Assembly (NCBI GenBank): GCA_903930515.1
Contig: CAIYYW010000273.1
Coordinates: forward strand, 1-8,439
Direction: 5' to 3'
DNA from: an uncultured delta proteobacterium
Lineage (GTDB): Bacteria > RBG-13-61-14 > DRUE01
DNA: 8,439 bases
Below, piece by piece: positions 384 to 8,439 of the stretch; the stretch's first letter is position 1; each line of letters starts with the position of its first letter. The translations under genes and the position numbers were made by a program. The notes under the pieces are model-generated. The model searched no databases, had not been told where the DNA came from, and was given only the letters and a program-made list of their open reading frames with translations.

Positions 384-432
384 AGCGTGTTGCGAGCTTT
401 GGGCGGTAATCGGCCCAAGCGAGCAACACGCT
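384..432. repeat. Large imperfect inverted repeat / hairpin
   Basis: AGCGTGTTGC (384-393) is the exact reverse complement of GCAACACGCT (423-432). Inside it, GA at 394-395 faces GA at 421-422 as a tandem G·A mismatch. Then GCTT (396-399) pairs with AAGC (417-420), T400 is bulged, and GGGC (401-404) pairs with GCCC (413-416), leaving the 8-nt loop GGTAATCG. This makes 18 Watson-Crick pairs over 49 nt. Read on the minus strand the stem is followed by TTTTCTTT, as in an intrinsic terminator; on the plus strand it is followed by GAAATTTT, which is a poorer U-tract. It ends 6 nt before the -35 box at 439. It could be a terminator, mainly for minus-strand transcripts, or a DNA-level operator. The inverted repeat is directly visible; the function is inferred. 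Confidence 0.75.
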
Positions 433-438
433 GAAATT

Positions 439-467
439 TTGACAAGGGCAGGGGGGTGGATTATACT
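439..467 (+). promoter_or_regulatory. Near-consensus sigma70-type promoter
   Basis: TTGACA (439-444) is a perfect -35 hexamer and TATACT (462-467) matches the -10 consensus at five of six bases. They are separated by exactly 17 bp, the optimal spacing. The spacer contains a run of six G (451-456). Transcription would be expected to start around 473-476, at or just before the ATG at 476. This promoter would drive the unknown 476 gene and, through the 14-nt junction, mfd. Confidence 0.75.
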
Positions 468-475
468 CGGAGGGC

Positions 476-1984
476 ATGAGCGAGGAGCAGGAGATCAAGG
501 AATCGGGGTCTGAACTGTGGGTGGAGCCGGGCGGGGAAGTCAGCAAACTGCTCCTGGAGCGGAAACGCTGGTTTCGGTCGGTGGAGGTTGAGCGGAAGCA
601 GGAGCGGCTGTTCGAGTTGGAGGTCTTGCTCAAGGGTTTGGTGGTTTATTCCAACCTCAATAACCATTCCATCTCCGATCGCTCCCGTCTGATCCATCGC
701 GATTTCAGCCCGGAGATTGAGGTGATCAAGAACGCCCTGGTCCGCTCAATTATTTTGATCCGGAGCCTTTTGCCGGAGACCGAGGCCAATATTCTTCATT
801 TCCAGAACTATGTGGAGACCCGCTTGATGAGCGACTATCAGCGGGGCCAGCTTTTATCGCGCGCCATCAACCAGAGCACGCCGATTGAATCGCTCTATAT
901 GCTCTGCCACAGCCTGATTGATTTCTCGGAACTGGCCGGGAACCTCTTGGAACTGGAAGACAAACGCTACCAGGTTTTTTATTATCTGGAGCAGATGGTA
1001 TCCCGCGAGATTATATCCAACCTCTATTTCAACCCCTTCCGCGCCCTCGGCTTCGCCCCGCATTACGATGTGGTCCGCTCCCCCCAGGTGACCCTGGTGG
1101 TCAAGGGCATACCGGACAAGAAGATCAAGAAGATGGTCTCAATGATCCTTTTGCTCCTGTTCAAACTGCTCCGGTACCTGAGCCTGATCCAGACCGAAGC
1201 CGCGAATTTGACGCGCCTGCGCGACGGCCTGATGGTGATCTCTCTGGTCAACTCCGAGAGCCAGCTGCTGGTGGAATCGTTTGAAGGCTTTTTCCCGGAC
1301 CGGATCCGCGAGTCCGGGTTTGACCGGACCGGGGAAGGCAAACGGCTCCTGGAATTATTGGACGCCTTCGCCTTCCAGCTCCAGGTGGAGTTGAAAAAAA
1401 TATTCGACCTGGAAATCAGGAATGCCGCGGCTTTGACCGAGCCGCGGCCGCTTCAGAACGGGATCATCCGCGCCCGGGGTATGCTGGTGAATATTTTCCA
1501 GCAGGCGATCGTGGAGGTCTGCCGGGTGTTTGATCCGGACCTGGACGGCCGTAAGATTTTCAAGGAATTCGTGAGCAAGCTGGAGCAGTCGCTCAAGCTC
1601 CGGCGGGATGTCTGGCTTTTTGCCAAGGTCTTGGAGCGGCAGGAGCAGGTTTTGGACCGGTGCGGAACCGGCCGCCCGATGGAGCCGATTTACGATTCCA
1701 TCAACACCCTGCGCAATTTTGTTTACTATTACCAGAACATCTCCTTCCAGTTCGTCCGGGCCTATGACCGCGAGGAGTTCCAGAGGTTTTTCGATTACCT
1801 GGACGCCACCGCCGCGGAAGAATTGAGAAAGCCGGAAGTGCGCTCGCTCTTCCGCACCGAAGTCAACGGCTTCCGGATGTTCCTGGAAGCCACCCTTAAC
1901 GCCATCAGCCATCGCGCCGAGTTGGAAAAGATTCCGTTCGGAACCGATGAAGCCGAACGGCTGCTTTCCCAGTTCCTGCAATAG
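476..1984 (+). CDS. Uncharacterised helical protein, upstream of and probably co-transcribed with mfd
   Basis: The 502-aa product is not a family I recognise. It has no signal peptide. It appears almost wholly alpha-helical and rich in Leu, Glu, Arg and Phe, with no visible nucleotide-binding, zinc or nuclease motif. A very hydrophobic stretch at residues 220-238 (MVSMILLLLFKLLRYLSLI) contains Lys and Arg and is preceded by a lysine cluster (KKIKK), so it looks more like a buried or membrane-contacting amphipathic helix than a clear transmembrane span. Aromatic-rich segments occur near the C-terminal part (FVYYYQNISFQF). ATG 476 is the only sensible start: an in-frame stop lies at 440-442 and the next GTG is at 521. 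GGAGGG at 469-474 is only one base from the ATG, too close to act as a normal ribosome site, and the promoter places the transcript start near the ATG, so initiation may be leaderless. It ends 14 nt before mfd on the same strand, which suggests an operon. It is not a recognisable cas gene despite lying beside the CRISPR array. Confidence 0.88.
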   Translation: MSEEQEIKESGSELWVEPGGEVSKLLLERKRWFRSVEVERKQERLFELEVLLKGLVVYSNLNNHSISDRSRLIHRDFSPEIEVIKNALVRSIILIRSLLPETEANILHFQNYVETRLMSDYQRGQLLSRAINQSTPIESLYMLCHSLIDFSELAGNLLELEDKRYQVFYYLEQMVSREIISNLYFNPFRALGFAPHYDVVRSPQVTLVVKGIPDKKIKKMVSMILLLLFKLLRYLSLIQTEAANLTRLRDGLMVISLVNSESQLLVESFEGFFPDRIRESGFDRTGEGKRLLELLDAFAFQLQVELKKIFDLEIRNAAALTEPRPLQNGIIRARGMLVNIFQQAIVEVCRVFDPDLDGRKIFKEFVSKLEQSLKLRRDVWLFAKVLERQEQVLDRCGTGRPMEPIYDSINTLRNFVYYYQNISFQFVRAYDREEFQRFFDYLDATAAEELRKPEVRSLFRTEVNGFRMFLEATLNAISHRAELEKIPFGTDEAERLLSQFLQ

Positions 1985-1998
1985 CAGACTGAGCCGAG

Positions 1999-4900
1999 AT
2001 GCCGCCCTTGCCGATGGAATCGCTGCTCCAAAAAATCCGCGAGCGGAAAAACCTTCAGCTTGCGTTCGCGCCCGGCTCTTCTCCCAGTTGGCTGGTCTCG
2101 CTGATCCGGCGCGAGACTGACCGGCCGGTGCTGGTCCTGGCCGACACCCCGGAAAAGGCCGCGGAAATTTCGGAAGAGTTGAAAACTTTTTCCGCGCTTC
2201 CCCTTGCGCTCTTTCCCGGGCTGGATTATTACCAACCCGAAGGGATGGAGCCGAGCGGGGAAAGGGCCGGGACCCTCGCCCGGATTCTGACCAAACAAAT
2301 CCGGCTGTTGGTCGCGCCCGCGATCAGCCTGTTCCAGCCCACGCTCCCGAGAAAATTGCTGGAGCAATACCTGTTTGAGCTCAAGCCCGGAGCCACCCTG
2401 GACCCGGAGCAATTCCTGGCCCGGCTGCTGGAAGCCGGGTACTTCTTCGCGGAGTCCGTGTCCGAGCCGAAAGAGATCAGCCGCCGCGGCGGGATCCTGG
2501 ACCTGTACCCGCCCGCGGCGATTTATCCGCTCCGGCTGGAATTTTTCGGAAACCAGATTGAAAGCATCCGATCCTTTGACCCGGCCGGACAGGTGTCCAA
2601 GCAAAAAATAGAGCGCGCCTGGATCTGGCCCGCGACCGAGTTGATCCTGACCCGGGAGCGCGGCCTGGAACTGAAGAAGGCCTTGTTCCGGCTGGCCGAG
2701 GATTTGAAAAAAAGTTACCGGGAAAAAAACCTGAGCTACACCCGGCCGGTCCAGGAGATCGTCAATCATTTGGATCAACAGCAACACTTTTACGCGGAAG
2801 AACGATTCCTCGGATTGATGGGCGGATCTGAATCCTTGCTTGACTATCTCTCGGATGATTGGCTGGTGGCAATCCTGGAGCCGTTTCCCACGAATCAAGT
2901 TCTGGCCCGGGCCGGCCAAAAGGCCCATGAAGATTGGGACAGACTGGCCGGGGGGGGGAGCTTGATCCCGGCTCCATTTCAAGTTTTTATCTCCGGTTCC
3001 GGGGTCAAGGAAAAAATTCGCCGGTTCCAAACCCTGACCCTGGGCGGATTGGTGTCCGGGAAAGAAGAGTTGGAGACGGCCCCGGAGGTTGAGCTTTTTC
3101 TGGAACCGATCCCGGGGGAAACGGCTGAACTGGCGATTGAGCTCAATCCGGACTTGTCTTTCTCGCCCAAGCTCCCGGAGCCGGTGGCAAAATTATTGTC
3201 CGAGATCAACAAACTGAGGACCGAAAAATTTTCCTCCATCCTGGTCTGCTCGTCGGTGAGCCAGTGCGAGCGGCTGGCCGATCTGTTCCGGGAGCAGGGA
3301 GTTTTCCCGGCGGAGTTGTCCTCAAAGGACGATTTTTTTTATCCCAAATGGCCGCTGACCATTGCCCCGGGCGAGCTGGGAACCGGGTTCCGGATTCCGG
3401 AGTTCGGGCTTGCCATCATCAGCGAGCAGGAGATTTTTGGAGAGAAGATCCGGAGGCGATTGGTCGCGCCGGAGCGGGTGGAGTGGAAAGAGGAGGATTT
3501 GTCGGATTTGCAACCGGGCGATCCGGTGGTTCATATCAAACACGGGATCGGTCTTTACCGGGGGATGCGCCAGGTCAAGGTGTCTAGTTTTGAAAAATGG
3601 GATGTGTTCAAAGGCCGCGTCCGGCCCATGCAGACGCAGCCCTGCCTGGAAATAGAATACGGGGACGGGGCGAAACTATTTCTTCCGGTGGACCAGATCA
3701 ACCAGGTCCAGAAATACCGCTCACCCGGAGAAGCTCCCCCCAAATTGGACCGGCTCGGCACGCAAAGCTTTGAGCTGGCCAAGAAGCGGGCGATGGAGGC
3801 GATTGAGAAACTGGCTGAGGATTTGCTTGAGCTTTACGCCAGCCGCGAAGTCTTCCCCGGCTATTCCCTGCCCCAGCCGGACCATACCTACCGCGAGTTT
3901 GAGGCCGGCTTTGAATTTGAGGAAACCCCGGACCAGGGGAATACCATTGCCGCGGTGATTGAAGACCTTTCGCGGGACCGGCCGATGGACCGGCTGGTGC
4001 TGGGCGATGTTGGCTATGGCAAGACCGAGGTCGCGCTCCGGGCGGCTTTTCTGGTGGCGATGGAGGGGAAACAAGTGGCCTTGCTCTGCCCGACCACCAT
4101 TTTGGCCCAGCAACATTTTGACACCTTCCAGCGCCGTCTCAAGGACTGGCCGGTTCAAGTTTGTATGCTCAGCCGGTTCCAATCCCGGATCGGCCAGAAG
4201 AAAAATATTGAGCGTCTGAAAAGCGGGAACTGCGACATCGTGATCGGAACCCACCGGCTTTTGAGCAAGGATGTGGAATTCCTGGATTTGGGTCTGCTGG
4301 TCATTGACGAGGAGCAGAGGTTCGGGGTGGTTCAGAAGGAAAAGATCCGGAAGCTGAAGAAGACGGTTCACTGCCTGACCCTGAGCGCGACCCCGATTCC
4401 GCGCACGATGGAAATGTCTTTGCTCGGTCTGCGCGACCTGTCCACCATCACCACTCCTCCCGCGGACCGGCAGGCGATCCACACGGAGTTGATCCATTTT
4501 GACCAGCAACTGATCCGCGAGGCGGTGCTGCGCGAAATCGCCCGGAACGGCCAGGTTTTTTTTGTGCACAACCGAGTCCAGGGCATTGACCAGATTGCCC
4601 GCTGGATCAGCCGGCTGGTGCCTGAGGCCAGGATCGCGGTTGCGCACGGGCAGATGGACGCGCGGAAATTGGAACAGGTGATGCGCAATTTTTATCAGCA
4701 TAAATACGATCTGCTGGTCTCAACCGCAATCATTGAAAGCGGGCTGGACCTGCCCTCGGCCAATACCATCATCGTCAACCGGGCGGACCAGTTCGGCCTG
4801 GCCCAGCTTTATCAACTGCGCGGCCGGATCGGGAGGAGCAAGGAAAAAGGGTATGCCTACCTGGTGGTGCCTTCGCGCGCGGCTTTGAAAGGAGACGCGG

Positions 4901-5550
4901 TCAAGCGGCTGAAGGCGCTCAAGGAATTCACCGAACTCGGCTCCGGTTTCAAGCTCGCGGCCCATGACCTGAAAATACGAGGCGCCGGGAACCTGCTCGG
5001 GAAGGAACAGAGCGGACAGATCAACCGGATCGGCTACGAGCTTTACCTCCGCCTGCTCGAGCAGAAGATCAGCCAGCTCAAGGGGGTCAAGACCGAAGAG
5101 GAATTCGATCCGGCCATCAAACTCGCCATTCCCGCGTTCCTGCCCGATGGTTACATCCCCAGCGATTCCGAGCGGCTCGGCTGGTATAAGAGACTGGCAA
5201 TGGCCAAGGATCAAAAGGAACTCAATTCCCTGCGCGAGGAGCTGATGGATCGGTATGGTAAAATACCGGGCGAGGCCGCAACTTTGCTGGAAGTGGTCCG
5301 GCTAAAGTTCTCGTTGAAACAACTCCGGATCCCGGAATTGGAAGCGGATCAGTCCCGCGCCCTGATCACCTTCAATGACCAGTCCCGGATTGACCTGGAC
5401 GGTCTGCTCAAACTCGCCGGGGAGCAACCATTATCCTTCAAGTTCACCAAGGACGAAAAACTGATCTTCCGGTTCCAGCGCGGCGCAAGCGTCTTCAAGC
5501 AACTACATTCCCTGTTCCAGCAAATCAAGCTTGCGTCATCGCAAAATTAA
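1999..5550 (+). CDS. mfd: Transcription-repair coupling factor Mfd
   Basis: Mfd is an ATP-driven DNA translocase that pushes or removes RNA polymerase stalled at lesions and recruits UvrA for nucleotide excision repair in the cytoplasm. The 1183-aa length is slightly above the usual 1150 or so. The N-terminal UvrB-like module carries the SRRGGILDLYPP segment (161-172). The RNA-polymerase-interacting domain begins near 500 (QPGDPVVHIKHGIG, 505-518). The RecG-like motor has Walker A GDVGYGKT (669-676), DEEQ (770-773), SATPIPRT (796-803), SGLDLP ending at 919 and QLRGRIGRS (939-947). The C-terminal TRCF domain starts near 1035. All key motor residues are present. An insertion of about 14 residues lies in the polymerase-interacting domain (within about 529-548), and a nine-G run at 2950-2958 encodes Gly318-320. 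ATG 1999 is 14 nt past the upstream gene and has no convincing Shine-Dalgarno site, so translational coupling is plausible; Met6 at 2014 is an alternative start. Identity is certain from the motifs. Confidence 0.99.
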   Translation: MPPLPMESLLQKIRERKNLQLAFAPGSSPSWLVSLIRRETDRPVLVLADTPEKAAEISEELKTFSALPLALFPGLDYYQPEGMEPSGERAGTLARILTKQIRLLVAPAISLFQPTLPRKLLEQYLFELKPGATLDPEQFLARLLEAGYFFAESVSEPKEISRRGGILDLYPPAAIYPLRLEFFGNQIESIRSFDPAGQVSKQKIERAWIWPATELILTRERGLELKKALFRLAEDLKKSYREKNLSYTRPVQEIVNHLDQQQHFYAEERFLGLMGGSESLLDYLSDDWLVAILEPFPTNQVLARAGQKAHEDWDRLAGGGSLIPAPFQVFISGSGVKEKIRRFQTLTLGGLVSGKEELETAPEVELFLEPIPGETAELAIELNPDLSFSPKLPEPVAKLLSEINKLRTEKFSSILVCSSVSQCERLADLFREQGVFPAELSSKDDFFYPKWPLTIAPGELGTGFRIPEFGLAIISEQEIFGEKIRRRLVAPERVEWKEEDLSDLQPGDPVVHIKHGIGLYRGMRQVKVSSFEKWDVFKGRVRPMQTQPCLEIEYGDGAKLFLPVDQINQVQKYRSPGEAPPKLDRLGTQSFELAKKRAMEAIEKLAEDLLELYASREVFPGYSLPQPDHTYREFEAGFEFEETPDQGNTIAAVIEDLSRDRPMDRLVLGDVGYGKTEVALRAAFLVAMEGKQVALLCPTTILAQQHFDTFQRRLKDWPVQVCMLSRFQSRIGQKKNIERLKSGNCDIVIGTHRLLSKDVEFLDLGLLVIDEEQRFGVVQKEKIRKLKKTVHCLTLSATPIPRTMEMSLLGLRDLSTITTPPADRQAIHTELIHFDQQLIREAVLREIARNGQVFFVHNRVQGIDQIARWISRLVPEARIAVAHGQMDARKLEQVMRNFYQHKYDLLVSTAIIESGLDLPSANTIIVNRADQFGLAQLYQLRGRIGRSKEKGYAYLVVPSRAALKGDAVKRLKALKEFTELGSGFKLAAHDLKIRGAGNLLGKEQSGQINRIGYELYLRLLEQKISQLKGVKTEEEFDPAIKLAIPAFLPDGYIPSDSERLGWYKRLAMAKDQKELNSLREELMDRYGKIPGEAATLLEVVRLKFSLKQLRIPELEADQSRALITFNDQSRIDLDGLLKLAGEQPLSFKFTKDEKLIFRFQRGASVFKQLHSLFQQIKLASSQN

Positions 5551-5664: not shown

Positions 5665-7875
5665 ATGAGCGGGAAGGTTTTGGCAAGGGGAATATTTTTA
5701 GTGGTTGCGATTTTATGGGCCGCAGGTTTGGCCGCGGGGGAGCGGGTGGACTGGCTTTTGAAGCAGAAGCCGGCGCTGGCGATCCGTTCCGAGAAGGGAA
5801 TGGCCGCGAGCCACCCGGTTTTGGGATTTGAAGCGGGGAAGACAGTTGAGACGAGGATCGGCCGGGCGCAAAGCTTTGAGGCAAGGGTGGAAGGGCTGGA
5901 GGGGAAAGTGTCGCTTCGGGCGGAAGAGTTGACCGATCTTCCGGCGATGATCTTATGGCTGGAACTCAAAGACGGGATGGACCCGGCGGAGATGGGGAAA
6001 TGGGAGATGGCGCCGATTGCCATTGAGTTGGATCAGCCGAATGATTTTCCCCGCTCTCTCTCTTTTGCCAATGACGCTTTTGCTCCTCCCAAAGACACTT
6101 TGGTCCCGAGCCAGGGGCCTGCGGTTTTTTATAATGACAATTTTGAAACGGTTTTGGTTTCTCCGCTGGACCATTTTATGGTCAGCCTGATCGGGCCGAA
6201 GGAGAGACGGTTCCAGATCGGATTGGAAGGCGATTTGAAATCCATTCCAGCCGGGTTCGATCATCCGGTGATTTTCTATTTCGGCCAAGGGATGCGGAAC
6301 AGTTTCATCGGCTGGGGGGATTTGCTGCTCCAGTGGCATAACCAGAAGCGGGAAGGGCCGTATTCGGATGTGGGGTTGTCGTATCTCGGTTACTGGACGG
6401 ACAATGGCTCGTATTATTATTACAAAACCGAGCCGGGGATGAATTACCAGGACACCTTGCTCGCGGTCAAGGCGGACGCGGACCGGGCCGGGGTTCCGTT
6501 CCGATATTTTCAAATGGATTCCTGGTGGTATTTCAAGAGCGAGGGCAAGCGGACCGGGATCGGCATTTTTGACTGGGTCAAAGCTCTAATGGGCGGCGGA
6601 GTGATCCGGTGGGAAGCGCGTCCGGACCTTCTCCCGGACGGCCTCAGCGGGTTTCAGAAAAAATTGAACTTGCCTTTGATCGCGCATAACCGCTGGTATG
6701 ACAAGAACAATGACTATCGCCGGGACTATCAATTTGTGGACGGGGTCGGAGACCGGAACCCGGCGTTCCCGATTGAGGATCGGTTCTGGGAGATGATTAT
6801 GGAGAACGCGAAGAATTGGGGGGTGGAGGTTTATGAGCAGGACTGGCTGTTGACGCAATGGGATATGATCCCGTATCTGCGCGAGAGCGTGGACGCGGGG
6901 GAGAAATGGCTGAAGGCGATGAGCAGGTCTGCGGAGAAGCGCGGCCTGACCATTCAATATTGTATGGCGAATCCGGGAATGTTTATGCAATCAGCTAAGT
7001 ATCCCAACATCACCCAGGTTCGGCCTTCCGGGGATTATTTGGCCGGAGCGCCCAAGCAGATGTTCTGGATCCCCTTTACCAAGACTTCCATGCTGGCCTG
7101 GGCGGTCGGGCTGTATCCCTGGAAGGATGTTTTTCTATCTTCCTCGGGACAGCGCGCGGTCCGGGACGAGCGCCATCCGGAAGAAGAAACCCTGATCAGC
7201 ATTTTGAGCGCGGCAATGGTCGGACCGGGGGACCGGATCGGGTCCATCAATAAGGATCTCCTGATGCGGACCTGCCGGCGCGACGGTTTGTTGCTCAAGC
7301 CGGACCTTCCGGCAATGCCGATTGACCGAATGTTTGTGGAGAACAACACCCTTTACACCATCATCACCGAGTCCAGGACCGGGATCGGGACTTATTATTA
7401 TGTGGCCGGCTTCAACATTTTTCCGCAAAAATACCGCGAGCGAGAGTTGAGCTTCCAGCAACTCGGGATCGGTCCGGGCAAATATCTGGTCTATGACTGG
7501 AAGGATAAAAGTTTCCAGACCGGCAAAGATCGGGTTGAATTTCCGAAAAACCTGGACCGTTACCGGTCGGCATATTATGTGGCGGTCCCTGATTTTGAAA
7601 AAACGCCGGCCCTGATCGGCGAGCAGGAAAAATTCATCACTGTGAGCAAAGCGAGGTTCCCGGAACTTGCGGTCAAAGATAATAAACTCAAGCTGACCAT
7701 TGCCGGCGTGCCGGGGGAAGAACTGGAACTGCGGTTCCGGGCTGAGAAAGAACCGGTTGCGAAGATCATCTCCGGCGCGAGCCTGATTGATTCCAACTAC
7801 GAGGCGAGCAGCGCTCTCTTGATCGTGAAGCTCAACCTGACTTCTGAAAAAGGGGAGATGGAAGTCGGATATTAA
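5665..7875 (+). CDS. Exported glycoside hydrolase, clan GH-D-like (GH27/GH36/raffinose-synthase-like fold)
   Basis: The 736-aa product has a Sec signal peptide: basic residues K4 and R8, hydrophobic core 10-24, likely cleavage near 23-25. It is therefore exported to the periplasm or surface. Residues of about 26-240 look like a beta-sandwich, about 240-560 like a TIM barrel and about 570-736 like a C-terminal beta domain, the architecture of GH36 enzymes. In order I see YWTDNGSYYYYK (243-254), RYFQMDSWWYF (280-290) where GH27/36 enzymes have a DDGW-type strand, VEVYEQDWL (387-395) where the nucleophile KxD would fall, C433 followed by NPG, and RPSGDY (453-458) where the acid/base Asp sits. 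The 64-residue gap from D393 to D457 is close to the 61 between the nucleophile and acid/base of human alpha-galactosidase A. Catalysis by D393 and D457 is inferred, and the substrate is unknown. A GH31-like or wholly separate family is possible. The start is fixed by the ribosome site at 5648-5656. Its stop overlaps the convergent methyltransferase stop. Confidence 0.85.
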   Translation: MSGKVLARGIFLVVAILWAAGLAAGERVDWLLKQKPALAIRSEKGMAASHPVLGFEAGKTVETRIGRAQSFEARVEGLEGKVSLRAEELTDLPAMILWLELKDGMDPAEMGKWEMAPIAIELDQPNDFPRSLSFANDAFAPPKDTLVPSQGPAVFYNDNFETVLVSPLDHFMVSLIGPKERRFQIGLEGDLKSIPAGFDHPVIFYFGQGMRNSFIGWGDLLLQWHNQKREGPYSDVGLSYLGYWTDNGSYYYYKTEPGMNYQDTLLAVKADADRAGVPFRYFQMDSWWYFKSEGKRTGIGIFDWVKALMGGGVIRWEARPDLLPDGLSGFQKKLNLPLIAHNRWYDKNNDYRRDYQFVDGVGDRNPAFPIEDRFWEMIMENAKNWGVEVYEQDWLLTQWDMIPYLRESVDAGEKWLKAMSRSAEKRGLTIQYCMANPGMFMQSAKYPNITQVRPSGDYLAGAPKQMFWIPFTKTSMLAWAVGLYPWKDVFLSSSGQRAVRDERHPEEETLISILSAAMVGPGDRIGSINKDLLMRTCRRDGLLLKPDLPAMPIDRMFVENNTLYTIITESRTGIGTYYYVAGFNIFPQKYRERELSFQQLGIGPGKYLVYDWKDKSFQTGKDRVEFPKNLDRYRSAYYVAVPDFEKTPALIGEQEKFITVSKARFPELAVKDNKLKLTIAGVPGEELELRFRAEKEPVAKIISGASLIDSNYEASSALLIVKLNLTSEKGEMEVGY

Positions 7876-8439
7876 AGCTTGCCCCCAAGGCGGAGCAGGG
7901 AGATGGATTCAAGATGGAAGGTCTGGGGGAAGAGATCCATGGGGATGATTTTTTCAAGTTGATACCCGGCCTTAAGCAGGGCGGCCAGGTCCCGGGCGAG
8001 GGTTGACGGCTCGCAGGAGACATAAATAACAGCTTTGGGCTTGAGCGCAATGATTTTCTGGATTTCTTTCTTGGCCCCGGCTCGGGGCGGGTCGAGCAGG
8101 ACCAGGTCGTACTTTTGATTGGATTTGAGCGCGTAATTGAGATATGCCTCGGAGGACTGGGAGATGATCCGGACATTGTCGGCGCCGGATTCGGTTTTGA
8201 GAAGATCGGCCAGTTCCACGGCGCAGCGATTGAGTTCCACCGCGGTCACCGCGGCCAATTTTTTCGCCAGAGCAAAAGTGAAATTACCGGACCCGGCGAA
8301 AAGCTCCAGGCAGGATTGGGCGCCGGTGGAATGGGCCAGCCCTGATACCAGGGAAACCATTTTTTGGTTTTGCTCCGGATTGCTCTGGACAAAGGAGAGG
8401 AGTTGGAGAGCGGTTTTACGGTCCGGGGAAATTTTCACG
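7872..8439 (-). CDS. TrmA/RlmC/RlmD-type RNA (uracil-5-)-methyltransferase, C-terminal part
   Basis: This is the C-terminal 188 or so residues of a class I SAM-dependent RNA methyltransferase that makes 5-methyluridine in 23S rRNA or tRNA. The gene enters from the right edge, so its N-terminus (TRAM and RNA-binding parts, possible iron-sulfur cysteines) is not in view; the GTG at 8436-8438 is probably an internal Val codon. FVQSNPEQNQKMV matches the conserved FxQxN segment that leads into the SAM domain. ELFAGSGNF (8280-8306) is SAM motif I, DPPR (8082-8093) is motif IV, and SCEP carries the catalytic Cys (codon 8013-8015), followed by TLARDL. HLES near the end supplies the family's catalytic base Glu (codon 7908-7910). 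The closest resemblance is to RlmD (RumA), but TrmA and RlmC cannot be separated without the N-terminus. It is convergent to the hydrolase, with a 4-nt overlap. Confidence 0.95.
   Translation of the reverse strand, partial: VKISPDRKTALQLLSFVQSNPEQNQKMVSLVSGLAHSTGAQSCLELFAGSGNFTFALAKKLAAVTAVELNRCAVELADLLKTESGADNVRIISQSSEAYLNYALKSNQKYDLVLLDPPRAGAKKEIQKIIALKPKAVIYVSCEPSTLARDLAALLKAGYQLEKIIPMDLFPQTFHLESISLLRLGGKL

Follow-up and report, generated by a model that had tools for sequence, protein, structure and literature searches.

An uncatalogued family of all-helical bacterial proteins, with a member encoded directly before mfd behind a conserved promoter

A conserved and hitherto undescribed protein family is represented in the window (the whole stretch of 8,439 nucleotides that was analyzed) by a 502-aa, all-helical protein whose gene immediately precedes mfd, and both the promoter of this gene and its 8-nt spacing from the start codon are newly found to be conserved in the three mfd-linked genomes of the phylum. 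The features are collected in Table 1. The initial annotation, made from the sequence alone, had described an intact reading frame for a helical protein without a recognizable motif, preceded by a near-consensus promoter of its own and followed after 14 nt by mfd on the same strand, and each of these observations held up. The reading frame opens with ATG, is uninterrupted, and has the last base of its stop codon at position 1984, with the mfd ATG at 1999. Comparison with a sister species of the same genus (genome G001) gave 90, 60, and 193 changes at codon positions 1, 2, and 3, with a dN of 0.149, a dS of 0.94, and a dN/dS of ~0.16, and 88 distinct homologous sequences were collected, so that it is certain that this is a true coding gene under purifying selection; the codon-position changes and the existence of the family rule out a spurious reading frame. 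Between the two species the protein is 79% identical, a higher value than the 71% of Mfd. The downstream gene was confirmed as mfd by 985.9 bits against a TIGR00580 cut-off of 800, and its product, which contains the Pfam domains TRCF, UvrB_inter, and CarD_TRCF_RID, shares neither sequence nor domain with the 502-aa protein.

Table 1. Features of the window and the second family member of the same genome
Feature	Position	Strand	Details	Basis
Inverted repeat	384..432		Near-perfect, 22-nt arms; between CRISPR array and promoter	Repeat search
Promoter of the operon with mfd	439..467	+	Sigma70-type, TTGACA-N17-TATACT	11/12 consensus bases
Gene of the 502-aa protein	476..1984	+	All-helical, undescribed family	ORF, homologues, model, codon changes
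N-terminal helical bundle and linker	539..1114	+	Residues 22-213; conserved linker residues N182, F185, P187, D198	AlphaFold2 and conservation
KKIKK and hydrophobic helix	1118..1189	+	Residues 215-219 and 220-238; opens the middle bundle as its first long helix	Model
Family signature EQSLKLRRDVW	1583..1615	+	Residues 370-380; R376 and D378 nearly invariant	Conservation
mfd	1999..5550	+	Transcription-repair coupling factor, 1183 aa; downstream operon partner	TIGR00580, 2.4e-296
Divergent paralogue	L019:3514-5010 (G000:C87), window genome		Overlaps start of acyl-CoA carboxyltransferase gene; G002 counterpart L018	

Within the first 2.1 kb, two promoter-like sites were found against 0.7 expected. 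The window, G001, and RBG_13_61_14 (G002) have identical hexamers and the same 17-nt spacer length in the operon promoter, and in each the ATG follows the −10 box after exactly 8 nt. G001 keeps the promoter although its sequence beyond it is different throughout. In G002, which is much more distant, GCCCTTT stands in place of the Shine-Dalgarno-like CGGAGGG. Because transcription is expected to start ~7 nt after a −10 box, the 8-nt gap indicates that the mRNA would begin at the ATG or within 1–2 nt of it. Closely placed −10 boxes before the ATG are a signature of leaderless genes in bacteria, which are defined by a −10 box ~10–12 bp before the start codon at a conserved position (PMC3160421). 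The arrangement TATACT-N8-ATG in the three genomes agrees with this definition, as does a genome-wide peak at 6–9 nt: the window genome contains 113 sites of the form TTGACA-N16-18-TANNNT-N0-30-ATG compared with 3 for the reversed control, and in 27 of the 97 analyzed among the sites listed the −10 box lies 6–9 nt before the ATG, against ~11 expected from the 11–30-nt bins. A predicted leaderless mRNA for the gene and mfd is well supported by this spacing and its conservation. The proposed co-transcription with mfd was also borne out as far as sequence allows, the order being kept in four genomes, and the two genes are very probably transcribed together. Leaderless genes appear to be widespread in the window genome, given the excess of −10 boxes 6–9 nt before ATG.

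Upstream of the promoter lies a CRISPR array (positions 2–335), cut by the contig start, with six 29-nt repeats (ATTTTCCCCACGCGCGTGGGGGTGAACCG, the fifth with one change) and 32-nt spacers at a period of 61. The repeat looks like one of type I-E; no further copy of it was found elsewhere in the window genome. The array, pointed out earlier as the other neighbor of the gene, is thus real, but it is incidental, because in the sister species the gene and promoter are present and the 1.9 kb upstream contain no array of this kind. The inverted repeat between array and promoter probably insulates the operon. Behind mfd, a 736-aa reading frame (5665–7875) has a signal-peptide-like N terminus and no Pfam match above cut-off, and the minus strand (7872–8438) carries the C-terminal part of an RlmD/RumA-type rRNA (uracil-C5)-methyltransferase gene that is cut by the contig end. 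Searches of the window for Rfam families and for tRNAs gave no match.

Searches of Pfam, NCBIfam, PHROGs, PADLOC, and PDB sequences returned no significant match for the 502-aa protein, PDB chains were matched neither by phmmer nor by profile, and literature searches turned up no relevant account of such a protein linked to mfd or ruvB. Judged by these searches, the family is an uncharacterized conserved (DUF-type) family that falls under no named family. Phage or plasmid cargo was rejected, as neither a tblastn search of plasmids nor PHROGs gave a match. The distribution is patchy and includes bacteria of the RBG-13-61-14 type, the phylum to which the window probably belongs, as well as Nitrospirota, Myxococcota-like genomes, Acidobacteriota, and others, with members in ~3% of genomes in domain-wide samples. 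A scan of contigs gave 46 loci, most of them in Nitrospirota and others in Acidobacteriota, Fischerbacteria, and 'Deltaproteobacteria'. Members occur in all three genomes sampled from the phylum of the window and in 34 of 97 from the phylum of G030, which we infer to be Myxococcota. A conserved hypothetical protein linked to RuvB in Myxococcota-like genomes belongs to the same family by full-length profile (E down to 1.8e-127), although its operon differs from that of the window protein. The window genome and G002 each have a second, divergent paralogue, encoded directly before an acyl-CoA carboxyltransferase.

The AlphaFold2 model of the whole protein, computed with ten relatives, is all helical (pLDDT 83.5, pTM 0.79), and residues 22–213 alone, with 52 sequences, gave a pLDDT of 88.7 and a pTM of 0.82. 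We read the model as three consecutive helical bundles at about residues 24–180, 203–355, and 356–501. An internal duplication was ruled out, as no similarity was seen among the N-terminal, middle, and C-terminal domains (hhalign probability 0.6–4.3%). Among polar residues, conservation is highest at W32, N182, D198, R376, D378, R428, D431, and R480. Foldseek comparison of the whole model with the PDB and viral models, and of the N-terminal domain with the PDB, gave no match with E <0.1, and VIA-align 2 returned generic helical bundles only, with best Z values of 10.3 (whole) and 9.3 (N-terminal domain); according to the tool's own note, such results are common among helical proteins. Single bundles of vinculin, talin, and alpha-catenin can be aligned with the middle bundle at Z ~10 and rmsd values of 2.6–3.6 over ~120 residues. 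However, the protein has no sequence homology to these three by phmmer or by profile against PDB chains, and their single-bundle matches tie with unrelated helical bundles (best Foldseek E 0.5). Because unrelated bundles score alike, the vinculin-type likeness probably reflects no more than a common arrangement.

The gene proved not to be fixed next to mfd across relatives, as mfd is present in all 13 carriers examined and adjoins the gene in 4, which is not the pattern of an obligate Mfd partner. These four are the three genomes from the phylum of the window, with the mfd of G002 cut by a contig end, and G016, where the order is gpsA-gene-mfd. The mfd beside the gene in G016 (L013:10357–13365) has an in-frame TAA after ...IFSERLK, which may reflect an assembly error or a pseudogene. 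Other clades encode the family away from mfd. In Nitrospirota the order is mutS-gcvH-lpd-gene-eno, with mutS ~2 kb upstream in most loci; in Myxococcota-like genomes it is ruvB-gene-lpxC, the gene lying directly behind ruvB in nearly all loci examined, and a divergent form in G375, from another sampled phylum, is likewise directly behind ruvB. The order gpsA-gene is found in G022 and its relatives and in G045, STAS-gene or gene...cheA in Acidobacteriota, and gene-pccB for the paralogue. The gene and its neighbors are tightly spaced and on one strand within each locus, with overlaps of a few nucleotides for gpsA/gene and gene/pccB, and Pfam confirms RuvB, GpsA, Lpd, enolase, carboxyltransferase, and STAS as neighbors. 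Mapped onto the tree, the contexts can be explained by 15 changes, against 39.8 in shuffles, indicating that they are inherited by clade. The window and G016 members share one supported clade, and their mfd contexts may therefore be a single inherited arrangement. The mfd link is thus lineage-bound, belonging to the window's own branch and one other lineage rather than being general; that relatives are never near mfd, named beforehand as grounds for dropping the link, is true of most clades and untrue of the window's. In some Acidobacteriota and Fischerbacteria, divergent members follow a gene for a single-domain STAS (anti-anti-sigma-like) protein (L072:4125–5880, L073, L075), and in G050 (L016:2465–5329) a member is followed by genes for a cyclic-nucleotide-binding protein and a PolB-like 3'-5' exonuclease.

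Two identities suggested by local features of the protein are very improbable. The KKIKK cluster and the hydrophobic stretch behind it, singled out in the initial annotation as the most distinctive local feature, are indeed present, and 19 residues with a mean Kyte-Doolittle hydropathy of 2.05 after a basic cluster could suggest a membrane or membrane-anchored protein. However, within this stretch 95% (weighted) of the family carry Arg or Lys at position 230 and Arg is frequent at position 233, and the high-confidence model places the helix, which spans residues 215–235 in the model, inside a soluble bundle; the conserved basic residue and the modeled bundle rule out a membrane span. An HEPN-type RNase or another toxin or defense protein linked to the CRISPR array, which lies 140 nt upstream of the gene, is similarly hard to credit. 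The weak Pfam match to HEPN_AbiU2 (PF18734; residues 339–414, E 0.022) scores 14.7 bits against a gathering cut-off of 26.8 and was obtained for 1 of 10 members. R-x(4-6)-H, the catalytic motif of HEPN RNases, is absent from the window protein (RRDVWLFAK, with no His) and present in only 29 of 87 members, and in the sister species the 1.9 kb upstream of the gene are free of such an array. This identity was rejected on the sub-cut-off score, the absent motif, and the lack of a PADLOC match.

The neighborhoods bear on two broader alternatives. Both Mfd and RuvB are repair motors that translocate on DNA, and the protein might bind such motors or their substrate complexes (Mfd with stalled RNA polymerase, RuvB at Holliday junctions) and help to load, brake, or recycle them. 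We regard this as possible but rather unlikely. Adjacency to mfd in the window's phylum and G016, with the support for co-transcription described above, the position directly behind ruvB in Myxococcota-like loci and G375, and mutS nearby in most Nitrospirota loci all argue for it. In most clades, however, the direct neighbors are not repair genes (gpsA, lpd/eno, pccB, STAS, cheA), the two mfd contexts possibly stem from one inherited event, mfd is near-universal in bacteria whereas the family is found in ~3% of sampled genomes, and the slightly acidic pI of the window protein (5.9) does not suggest DNA binding. That the family serves transcription-coupled repair and branch migration alike as a common accessory, as partner of Mfd in some phyla and of RuvB in Myxococcota, seems decidedly improbable. 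Of the first guess of a role in transcription, repair, or polymerase handling, the repair part is compatible with the Mfd and RuvB contexts, but it is not established, because metabolic neighbors are at least as frequent. These neighbors, which across several clades comprise gpsA, lpd, eno, pccB, and malic enzyme and show coupling overlaps, could point to a metabolic regulator or an assembly factor whose expression accompanies that of central carbon enzymes. This too appears improbable, as five different metabolic genes are weak evidence when such genes are common, the mfd, ruvB, STAS, and cheA contexts do not fit, and no cofactor motif or enzyme fold was found. The great variation of neighbors between clades fails to single out one pathway.

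A soluble, cytosolic, presumably non-enzymatic helical adaptor is the best reading of the data, held tentatively and at somewhat less than even chances. It fits best because the protein combines the absence of an enzyme signature with conserved charged residues, a soluble helical build, and co-expression with housekeeping genes; no relation to any enzyme family was found in Pfam, NCBIfam, PHROGs, PADLOC, or the PDB, and Foldseek gave no significant match. As such an adaptor, the three-bundle protein would bind a cellular partner that is itself conserved, with contacts made by the polar residues of highest conservation, namely those of the linker at residues 181–198 together with the charged R376, D378, R428, D431, and R480 in the C-terminal bundle. 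In the lineage of the window, the protein and Mfd would be synthesized together from one promoter and an mRNA starting at the start codon, whereas in other lineages the same protein would be tied to other housekeeping operons. The near-invariant charged residues could equally form an active or ligand-binding site.

The conserved and probably leaderless promoter suggests how this candidate phylum expresses a repair operon. The family itself is conserved and uncatalogued, and its presence beside ruvB in culturable myxobacteria makes its function testable there, including a function in repair.
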